Part shown: positions 31,437 to 34,279 of the stretch, piece by piece
Position numbering within the stretch: the stretch's first letter is position 1
Layout of the letters: every line of letters starts with the position of its first letter
NCBI RefSeq assembly: GCF_014697195.1
Contig: NZ_JACJRJ010000058.1
Coordinates: 1-34,279 of the forward strand
Length of the DNA stretch: 34,279 bases
Source: Cylindrospermum sp. FACHB-282
Lineage (GTDB): Bacteria; Cyanobacteriota; Cyanobacteriia; Cyanobacteriales; Nostocaceae
Direction of reading: 5' to 3'
The notes under the pieces: generated by a model
What the model saw: the letters and a program-made list of their open reading frames with translations, nothing else
Databases searched by the model: none
What the model was told of the DNA's origin: nothing
Position numbers and translations under genes: made by a program

Positions 31437-31850
31437 TCAAGGAAGTATTTTAAAGTAATCACAATGCTTTGGACGCACAAGAGAAAAATCGCGGCGATCT
31501 AGAGTTAGAACACAGGTAATGCCTAATCTTTCTGCAATCGTAACTATTACAGCATCTACGAAATCGAGTTGACTATCAGCGTATTGCTCTAAAATCTCAT
31601 TAACTCTTTCTAAATCTATAGTCGTAATTTGCTCTAGCTGTGTACCGCTAATAGCCAGATTAGCGAGAAAACGACGCATTGCTTGATGCCCTAATCTTGA
31701 TGAAATCAAATAGCAGACTTCAGGAAGAACAACACTGGGAAGTAGCAGCGGCTCACTTATGGTTTGTGCCACAGCAAGAACACGTTCGTGATTGCGATCG
31801 CTTTGATCTGCCAGTGCAAACAGAAAGCTAGTGTCAAGGATGACAGTCAT
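31437..31850 (-). CDS. VapC-like PIN-domain toxin
   Basis: This is a PIN-fold ribonuclease. The 137 residues contain the acidic catalytic set: Asp6 (MTVILDTSF), Glu44 (LPEVCY), Asp96/Asp99 (LDFVDAVIV) and Asp118 (LTLDRRDF). The ATG at 31850 starts two nt after the antitoxin stop. The gene appears complete. Just downstream is a small fragment resembling part of its own coding sequence. Confidence 0.9.
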   Translation of the reverse strand: MTVILDTSFLFALADQSDRNHERVLAVAQTISEPLLLPSVVLPEVCYLISSRLGHQAMRRFLANLAISGTQLEQITTIDLERVNEILEQYADSQLDFVDAVIVTIAERLGITCVLTLDRRDFSLVRPKHCDYFKILP

Positions 31851-31852
31851 AC

Positions 31853-32119
31853 TTACTTATCTGAATTTCTACTCCAACCGCGAATAGGATCAACTTCATT
31901 TGCCAGAATCTCTTCATCCCTTTCTGAAACATCCTTTTCTGCTGAATTTCCCAAGCCTGCAACTGAAAGCAAAAAGTTTGCACTAGTTTTTTGGGATTCT
32001 TTTTCAGTTGCTTTATAGCGAAGGTAATCAACAAAATTGATGAGTTCAGCGAGGGAATCCTCTGGCAATGTTTTAATTGACTCAATAATCTGCGCTCGGT
32101 TTTTGGTTAAAGTATCCAT
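31853..32119 (-). CDS. VapB-like antitoxin (partner of the PIN toxin)
   Basis: This 88-residue protein begins MDTLTKNRAQIIESIKTLPEDSLAELINFVDYLRYKA, resembling the DUF2281-type N-terminal segment of cyanobacterial antitoxins. The C-terminal tail (EEILANEVDPIRGWS) is typical of a toxin-binding peptide. Its position immediately before a PIN toxin gives the role. The ATG at 32119 is preferred; an upstream in-frame start would add 12 residues. Confidence 0.8.
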   Translation of the reverse strand: MDTLTKNRAQIIESIKTLPEDSLAELINFVDYLRYKATEKESQKTSANFLLSVAGLGNSAEKDVSERDEEILANEVDPIRGWSRNSDK

Positions 32120-32196
32120 ATCTTTATTTAAATGAATGCTGCTTACTTCAAACACACTATTCTATTCTGACTGAAATTGCTGTCTAATGGTTAAAC

Positions 32197-32723: not shown

Positions 32724-32806
32724 ACTACTTCTATGTAATTTAGTATTTTTCGTATTTGCTACATAATAACCAAAGACTTGAGGTTATTTGAGGTAAGCAC
32801 CCTATA

Positions 32807-32846
32807 CATAGTTAGACAAAAAAGTTCTGTCTAAATTTTTACTATG
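32807..32846. repeat. Interrupted palindrome near the hicA remnant
   Basis: The arms CATAG-TTAGACA and TGTCTAA-(7 nt)-CTATG are complementary around a 9-nt core. It lies just before the point where hicA loses its start, so it may be a terminator or the residue of a small mobile element. Confidence 0.35.
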
Positions 32847-32893
32847 AACACCATAACACAGTACTGTAGTAATTTTTATGTTTCTATACAGAG

Positions 32894-33025
32894 CTTTTAC
32901 TTAGAGGCAGTCATCGTATCCTCAAACATCAAAGCAAATCAGGTATCGTAGTTGTACCTGGAAAACCAAGTGATGATATTCCAGTAGGTACACTCTCATC
33001 GATTTGGAAGCAAGCAAAATTATGA
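32894..33025 (+). pseudogene. HicA toxin remnant, N-terminus missing
   Basis: About 40 residues match the C-terminal half of HicA: LLLRGSHRILKHQSKSG with the conserved catalytic-type His in GSH, then IVVVPGKPSDDIPVGTL and SSIWKQAKL. The frame hits a stop at 32870-32872 and has no start codon, so the first 20 or so residues are lost. Its stop overlaps the HicB start by ATGA, showing the original operon. Confidence 0.75.
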
Positions 33026-33275
33026 AAGAAAAAATGATTGAGTACACAGTCATCTACGAACGTGGCGAGACAAACTGGGGCGCATATATTCCTGATCTAC
33101 CTGGTTGTGTCAGCATTGGTGACACTCTGATAGAAGTACAGGAAAATATTAAAGAAGCGATGGCGCAAAGCGCCCGCCGGAGGCGATCGCACTGTATCTA
33201 GAAGTATTAAAAGAAGATGGACAACTCATACCGGAACCTTCCACAGAAGTTGGTAAAGTAGCAGTGACAATATGA
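33022..33275 (+). pseudogene. HicB antitoxin gene disrupted by a 26-bp insertion
   Basis: The 5' part reads MKEKMIEYTVIYERGETNW, then GAYIPDLPGCVSIGDT, a HicB domain. At 33162 the sequence enters a GC-rich 26-bp block, which shifts the frame and stops translation early. Removing the block restores EAIALYLEVLKEDGQLIPEP and STEVGKVAVTI, then a stop at 33273. The block lies within a restored GCGATCGC site. The antitoxin is therefore broken, next to a toxin that is also broken. Confidence 0.8.
33162..33187. mobile_element. 26-bp insertion inside hicB (small dispersed repeat-like)
   Basis: This block contains GCGCAAAGCGCCCGCC and ends GGAGGCGAT, repeating the GCGAT found just before it, so the junction has a 5-bp direct repeat. 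It is GC-rich and partly palindromic in an AT-rich context. Small dispersed repeats of 21-27 bp of this kind are described from Nostoc genomes. Confidence 0.65.
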
Positions 33276-33302
33276 ATACAACTACTGCAACATAAATTTA
33301 CC

Positions 33303-33413
33303 ATGCAAGGAATAGCCGTTACTGAAACTATCACCACTATCGCTGAAGCGGAAAGACGATTTGGCTTGAGCCGCAGTGAATCTAAGGATTTTTTTCCAGA
33401 ATGGTATTGGTAA
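33303..33413 (+). pseudogene. Truncated N-terminus of a cyanobacterial hypothetical gene
   Basis: A 36-codon frame reads MQGIAVTETITTIAEAERRF, then GLSRSESKDFFPEWYW, and stops. It resembles the start of a common cyanobacterial hypothetical (xxFGLSRSE...FFxEWY...), which continues for over 150 residues in its full form. It stops close to the left limit of the IS607-type element, so insertion of that element may have truncated it (inference). Confidence 0.5.
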
Positions 33414-33493
33414 ACTTCACTGATTTTATAGACAGACTTTGCCAAATATAGATAAATGTATTAAGATATTTGTCAAGGTTGAGAACAACAAAT

Positions 33494-33550
33494 ATGAAAC
33501 TATCAGATTATGCTAAATTAATAGGAGTGAGCTATAAAACAACGTGGTGA
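33494..33550 (+). pseudogene. tnpA: IS607 TnpA (serine resolvase) stub
   Basis: The frame gives MKLSDYAKLIGVSYKTTW and then a stop. This is the first helix-turn-helix of the MerR-like N-terminus of IS607 TnpA (MKLSxYAKxxGVSYxTAW). The remaining 170 or so residues, including the serine recombinase domain, are absent, and only 33 nt separate the stop from tnpB. The element cannot move by itself. Confidence 0.75.
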
Positions 33551-33583: not shown

Positions 33584-34279
33584 ATGCAACTAGCTGAAAG
33601 ACACATCATCAAAAAAACTCATAAAAGCTATCAAGAAATTGATAAGCTTTGCTTTCTTTCTAAAAATCTCTATAATATTGCCAACTACTTAATTAGGCAA
33701 TCCTTCTTTAAAACTGGTGAAATTCTCAGTTATAATCAGACCCAAAAACTATTACAAAGTCAGTTTGATTATAAAAATCTGCCAGCGAAAGTAAGTCAGC
33801 AAATATTAATGATTTTAGATAAGAACTGGAAAGCATTTTTTCAAGCACAAAAGGCTTATCAAGAAAACCCATCTAAGTTTTTAGGCAAACCAAAATTACC
33901 TAAATACAAACATAAAGAAAATGGGAGAAACCTTTTAGTTTATACTATACAGGCTTTATCTAAACCATTTCTATCAAAAGGACTTATTAAACTTAGCCAG
34001 ACTGAGATAGTTTTCCCTACTCAGACTAAAAAAATAGCACAAGTGAGGATTATTCCCAAACTTAATCATTATGTTATTGAGGTGATTTATCATCAAGAAG
34101 AAAAACCAAAACAGGTAGATAATAAGAGAATTGCCAGTATTGATTTAGGATTAAATAATTTGGCTACTGTAACTTTCAATCAAGCAGGTTTAATACCTTT
34201 CTTGATAAATGGCAGACCTTTAAAATCCATTAATCATTTTTTTAATAAAAAGAAAGCTAAATTACAGGTGATTCTCAAA
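33584..34279 (+). CDS. tnpB: TnpB-like nuclease, partial at the window end
   Basis: The first 232 residues of a TnpB/OrfB protein are present and the frame is open to the window end. AGGAGG at 33574-33579 precedes the ATG at 33584; an ATG at 33581 is out of frame and closes at once. The N-terminus begins MQLAERHIIKKTHKSYQEI. The first RuvC acid is Asp187 in IASIDLGLNNLATV. The following NGRPLKSINHFFNKKKAKLQ is typical of this TnpB branch, which differs clearly from the TnpB at 26500-27732. The rest of the RuvC motifs and the zinc finger lie outside the window, so activity cannot be judged. Confidence 0.88.
   Translation, partial: MQLAERHIIKKTHKSYQEIDKLCFLSKNLYNIANYLIRQSFFKTGEILSYNQTQKLLQSQFDYKNLPAKVSQQILMILDKNWKAFFQAQKAYQENPSKFLGKPKLPKYKHKENGRNLLVYTIQALSKPFLSKGLIKLSQTEIVFPTQTKKIAQVRIIPKLNHYVIEVIYHQEEKPKQVDNKRIASIDLGLNNLATVTFNQAGLIPFLINGRPLKSINHFFNKKKAKLQVILK

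Follow-up and report, generated by a model that had tools for sequence, protein, structure and literature searches.

In 2008, Elhai et al. reportedly distinguished eight families of small dispersed repeats (SDRs) of 21–27 nt in Nostoc punctiforme and its relatives, and SDR4, SDR5 and SDR6 are said to share a structure with compensatory changes. SDR5 is likewise said to occur only in HIP1 and to be confined to Nostoc relatives, with an RNA intermediate held possible. Its insertion has been described as precise and within HIP1, between nucleotides 3 and 4 (PMC4390886). Further parallels come from other short repeats: Rickettsia palindromic elements (RPEs) are dispersed repeats that occur in frame within protein-coding genes (PMC10969869 and PMC3733652), the REPIN authors name SDRs beside REP/REPIN (PMC3116915), and MITEs measure 70–300 bp with 15–30 bp terminal inverted repeats (PMC3733652). 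No description of in-frame SDR5 insertions was found in the literature searched, outside of which the original SDR publication lay.

Here we describe a 26-nt block in a hicB antitoxin gene which, judging from sequence comparison, is very probably an SDR5-like small dispersed repeat that has inserted in a HIP1 octamer. The window, that is, the whole stretch of 34,279 nt that was analysed, contains the following features at this locus:

32903..33021, + strand: probable hicA remnant, the 5′ part of hicA seemingly absent (suggested by the homology start)
33022..33275, + strand: interrupted hicB antitoxin gene (Pfam HicB_lk_antitox; uninterrupted in 24/27 rows of relatives)
33157..33190, + strand: complete element including the two HIP1 halves, GCGAT - hairpin 1 - hairpin 2 - ATCGC
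33162..33174, + strand: hairpin 1, 5-bp stem, AAA loop (DNA fold; family stem covariation)
33175..33185, + strand: hairpin 2, 4-bp stem, GGA loop (DNA fold; family stem covariation)
33183-33190, + strand: HIP1 octamer GCGATCGC, restored at the right-hand junction
33186..33187, + strand: second AT, which may be a 2-nt duplication of the HIP1 centre (placement ambiguous within the shared GCGAT)

The hicB gene starts with the ATG at 33022, its HicB stop lies at 33273-33275, and the 26-nt block GGCGCAAAGCGCCCGCCGGAGGCGAT (33162-33187) sits inside it. With the block present hicB is frameshifted and the frame from 33022 closes at 33201 after 59 aa, whereas without it the octamer GCGATCGC and an unbroken HicB frame are left. 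The sequence-only reading had claimed this restoration, and it is borne out by the sequence and by the match to HicB_lk_antitox, which rises from 34.3 bits for the interrupted frame to 51.5 bits for the protein read across the insert (a query with one wrong residue at the junction). The block coordinates and the repetition of GCGAT at the junction were also given correctly: GCGAT flanks the block at 33157-33161 and recurs at 33183-33187 as the block's own last letters. Because GCGAT stands on both sides, a 26-nt insertion has six placements that give one product, and 33162-33187 is one of the six. The inverted ends of the element are the HIP1 halves of its target, and a duplicated AT at the HIP1 centre would be the simplest account of them, in a sequence that fits the other placements equally. 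In the window, GCGATCGC is strongly over-represented (27 against 0.10 expected), the 26-mer occurred with up to three mismatches in none of 100 shuffles, and Rfam gave no match at E up to 1 over positions 32800-33500.

Homologues of hicB were taken from a search of 149 relatives and a search of named genomes. The alignment comprises the 27 rows matched on both arms, to the exclusion of 29 more loci for which just one arm could be matched; not all rows are separate genes, as L033 and L046 overlap and the named and unnamed sets may share more. Nothing lies between the arms in 24/27 rows, and seven of these 24 retain an intact GCGATCGC at the site: L022, L049 (Dolichospermum sp. LEGE 00240), L056 (Dolichospermum sp. 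ST_sed8), L060, L063, L064 and L067, of which L022 and L056 are alike in every comparison and may be one sequence. Two rows that are very likely one gene (L025 and L084) have a 5-nt insert, and one (L021, from genome G074) has a 21-nt insert, all at the site of the 26-nt block. The exact 26 nt were found in none of the 27 rows. Comparison with orthologous hicB, as proposed in the sequence-only reading, hence supports an insertion, and the outcome named there as fatal, related hicB genes carrying the block in frame, did not appear: one relative has an in-frame insert, of 21 nt and different.

The same reading had called the insertion datable. The empty HIP1 sites do provide the clear pre-insertion state that it claimed, whereas the dating is only loose, because toxin-antitoxin genes move between genomes and two same-genus genomes matched the repeat only, with no hicB match at E ≤ 1e-8. 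Compared with L049, the empty copy closest to it, the window shows 8 synonymous and 3 nonsynonymous codon differences out of 46 to the left of the insert, and 8 synonymous and 1 nonsynonymous out of 29 (stop included) to the right. This right-hand ratio suggests that the arm after the insert was under selection until recently, and the insertion would therefore be young relative to the split between the window and L049. The right-arm comparison relied on L049 alone because the 3′ end of hicB differs in L056, L021 and L022 (8 or 9 nonsynonymous codons out of 29 against the window); over the left arm, L021 and L022 share 38 codons and differ in 8 synonymous and 0 nonsynonymous ones.

One hicB site thus has two outcomes, the frame-breaking 26-nt copy in the window and the in-frame 21-nt copy with different letters in G074, which belongs to another genus. 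By eye, the 21-nt insert follows the same layout, its stems being 3 bp long, but the RNA fold predicted for it differs from this double hairpin and is no better than shuffles (z -0.15). The G074 genome holds five copies of it at up to three mismatches, two of them exact, and variants were present in all seven genomes searched, some with paired stem changes. In G029, from the genus of G074, the hicB site is empty. Two independent insertions at one site would be the simplest reading of these sequences.

The 6.1-Mb genome to which the window belongs (G000) contains the exact 26-mer three times, in the window and at C59:148436 and C59:149458, and a copy with three mismatches at C74:8767. The genome search with mismatches suggested at the outset accordingly returned further copies, and the block is not unique; uniqueness would have spoken against mobility. 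The proposal of a very small mobile repeat of the Nostoc type in hicB is supported by the empty HIP1 sites and the further copies; the exact 26-mer itself is rare. Contig C59 carries tandem ADP-ribosylglycohydrolase genes (L009 1496-2549), both with an identical frame-breaking insert. The three exact copies amount to two independent loci, since the two on C59 sit in tandem paralogues, and the near-identity of the paralogues after the insert (98% over 200 nt) indicates that one insertion was probably spread there by conversion or duplication. The part before the insert was identified as ADP-ribosylglycohydrolase for one C59 copy. The same 26 letters consequently stand at HIP1 in two unrelated genes, hicB and that for ADP-ribosylglycohydrolase.

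Clean empty sites were found in other genes as well. The ADP-ribosylglycohydrolase gene was matched in 56 genomes, and 29 loci besides our own were compared. An 8-nt site is present in each of these 29, among them the two paralogues of the same-genus genome G001, none outside the own genome has the 26-nt block, and the 20 loci that were resolved gave 23 rows, all without an insert and 22 with GCGATCGC. For a gene of the biotin/lipoate-ligase family (Pfam; 67 genomes matched), 23 of 24 relatives compared have an 8-nt site, 14 of the 24 as GCGATCGC, and one has 14 nt. For an SLH-domain gene, 16 other loci were matched and the 11 strongest compared; all 11 have the 8-nt site, eight as GCGATCGC. 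The latter two genes are conserved and their in-frame copy is absent from relatives, the 14-nt exception apart, which brings the genes with empty GCGATCGC sites to four, hicB included. These counts bear on the converse history, in which the block is ancestral and was precisely lost in the relatives. Slippage between the flanking GCGAT repeats could indeed excise it exactly, but its absence from the 27 hicB rows and the 29 ADP-ribosylglycohydrolase loci would demand many independent losses of a block that breaks both frames, and we regard this history as scarcely credible.

The body of the element consists of two adjacent GC-rich hairpins with 3-nt loops between the HIP1 halves, GCGAT[hp1][hp2]ATCGC. 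Folded as DNA, both strands of 33157..33190 are predicted to adopt a three-way junction (-12.6 and -12.7 kcal/mol, z -2.14 and -2.47), and as RNA the single copy did not fold significantly better than shuffles (z -1.35 and -1.29). A strict family pattern, in which the outer stem letters are fixed and whose counts are lower bounds, matched 62 of 198 genomes of the same order (the own genome included); the reversed pattern, used as a control, gave 0 matches throughout the 198. The own genome has at least 22 copies, that in hicB included, and two same-genus genomes at least 54 and 39. Most positive genomes (59/62) belong to the own family, f1, and the other three are G114, G129 and G190. Genomes assembled into 2 to 5 contigs (G074, G001 and G002) carry the same kind of element, which makes an assembly error or contamination highly improbable, even though the own genome is a draft of 113 contigs.

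The matches listed yielded 102 distinct strings, of which 60 and 30, representing two length classes, were tested for covariation and 12 of other lengths were left out. The free stem positions of the first class pair in 57, 53 and 51 of 60 strings against shuffle means of 31.7, 40.5 and 35.1, the first of these being columns 7-13; across the loops, pairing was counted in 0 and 1 of the 60. For the 26-nt class, the stems pair in 28, 29, 29 and 27 of 30 strings (shuffles 23.0, 14.3, 29.0 and 19.6), the second value being that of columns 8-14 and the third that of a column which hardly varies and is uninformative; across the loops, the figure is 1 of 30 in both cases. The stems covary and the loops are unpaired, in related copies whose changes are not independent events. 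A search blind to the flanks, which required two GC-rich hairpins side by side, each with a 3-nt loop and a stem of 4 or more, was run on 400 kb each of G000 and G001 and returned 10 double hairpins (a raw count that includes the two C59 paralogues). Seven lie exactly in GCGAT..ATCGC, three in flanks with one or two letters changed and none elsewhere, which identifies the two hairpins as the body of the element; 400 kb of G074 contained none. Family unity is a matter of double-hairpin structure and HIP1 context more than of letters.

Copies within a single genome are quite diverse, so that most of them are not recent duplicates of a common source. This diversity would also suit a block that never moved and arose in place at HIP1, itself a palindrome, through slippage or quasipalindrome templating, and hairpin-templated correction would lead to stem covariation too. 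Such an origin nevertheless fails to explain why two unrelated genes share 26 identical letters, why the 21-nt insert has a second exact copy in the G074 genome, and why the stems contain letters with no source in HIP1; we consider it unlikely. Two further observations concern the arrangement of copies: at L147 4641-4700 (G001) two elements are nested or abutting, one seemingly inside the ATCGC end of the other, and a 25-nt sub-type with the GGCGTACCCGCC hairpin occurs several times in G002 among the matches listed.

The fate of the copies in genes was examined for 117 copies with flanks, of 24 nt (73 copies), 25 nt (13), 26 nt (28), 27 nt (2) and 28 nt (1), by asking for a frame of at least 50 codons open on both sides, the flanks not being joined. 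Such a frame exists for 42 of the 75 copies with a length divisible by three (38 with the empty-site frame) and for 3 of the 42 others (2 with the empty-site frame; p 5e-8). Split into an initial set of 77 copies and a later set of 40, the proportions are 32/49 versus 3/28 and 10/26 versus 0/14. With the minimum frame set to 40, 60 or 80 codons instead, the whole sample of 117 still yields p below 1e-5, and the second set by itself 0.017, 0.016 and 0.075. Length goes with sub-type, which could contribute to the split: 25-nt copies, none of which passes (0/13), are largely the one sub-type of G002. Plain HIP1 sites pass in 202/257 cases in G000, 191/268 in G001 and 75/125 in G074. Taken together with the length split, these rates indicate that the targets lie mostly in genes and that copies which break the frame have apparently been eliminated. 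An open frame is somewhat less common even for in-frame copies than for plain HIP1 of G000 and G001, and in-frame copies are read in all six frames. To judge from these sequences, in-frame insertions seem to be tolerated and frame-breaking ones purged, suggesting that what determines the retention of copies in genes is selection more than insertion preference.

The copies in hicB and on C59 are among the few frame-breaking exceptions; that in hicB was not scored as coding, its arms being below the threshold. Downstream of the insert, the frame is still open both in hicB and in the C59 gene, and an in-frame GCG at 33157 is followed by another 26 nt on, either side of the predicted fold. Ribosomes could in principle skip the fold from GCG to GCG, so that hicB would still be read. 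General skipping, however, would not leave lengths indivisible by three so rare in open frames (3/42), and the open frames may reflect young insertions alone. We consider such a bypass very improbable.

Upstream of hicB, homology to six relatives begins at 32903 in four, at 32901 in one and at 33013 in one, and the hicA of the window seems to be without its 5′ part. In a crude frame test, 6 of 11 named relatives likewise lacked a long hicA frame. With a broken toxin gene, loss of the antitoxin would be harmless, and this may be why the insert has persisted in hicB: hicA would have lost its 5′ part before or after the insertion, and inactivation of its partner would have carried no cost. Nearby, an OrfB_IS605 (TnpB-type) gene (33584-34279, + strand) close to the broken hicB runs off the window end, and a PIN-domain gene (31437-32155, - strand) beside a DUF2281 gene is perhaps part of a VapBC-like pair next to the hicAB remnant.

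The block has inserted precisely into GCGATCGC, has a double-hairpin body and further copies, and shifts the hicB frame; it is best read as a target-specific mobile repeat that serves no function of its own at this site. We propose that the element moves as a folded single strand of DNA or RNA, which would be joined at the cut HIP1 palindrome, most simply with duplication of the central AT, by an enzyme from the host or another element that acts at HIP1 or on the hairpins. In genes under selection, mostly copies with a length divisible by three would survive, usually as 8-codon insertions. More tentatively, and with some doubt on our part, what is copied may be shape more than sequence: a double-hairpin strand of ~19-24 nt repeatedly joined into the AT centre of HIP1 would, through its many 24-nt copies, act as a standing generator of in-frame 8-residue insertions, readable in six frames, in Nostocaceae proteins. 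The elements are too small to encode an enzyme, and tests of how they spread need cases like this one, in which target and empty state are known and the genome holds identical copies at other places. The data suggest that cyanobacterial proteins gain short peptide insertions by this repeat route, and the hicB case gives an unusually clear before-and-after picture of a kind of repeat known in Nostoc relatives.

The block fits SDR5 and is filed as SDR5-like, a likeness that concerns target, size, structure and distribution. At 26 nt it falls within the 21-27 nt reported for SDRs (one 28-nt family copy exceeds this range), the family stem covariation corresponds to the compensatory changes, and 59 of the 62 positive genomes, among those of the same order searched, belong to the own family, f1, in line with the reported confinement to Nostoc relatives. 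The copies here span 24-28 nt, and their division by length and reading frame was measured in this study. Like SDR5 (PMC4390886), the element lies within HIP1, and the placement between nucleotides 3 and 4 is one of the six equivalent ones. Small mobile repeats without coding capacity also include MITEs such as the cyanobacterial Nezha. REP/REPIN sequences are likewise short palindromic repeats dispersed in the genome, but REPs are described as extragenic (PMC3733652), unlike the copies inside genes here. RPEs are larger, at ~150 bp against 26 nt (PMC10969869), and their descriptions in the sections available mention no HIP1 target; what they share with the hicB element is a dispersed repeat family with in-frame copies inside protein genes.
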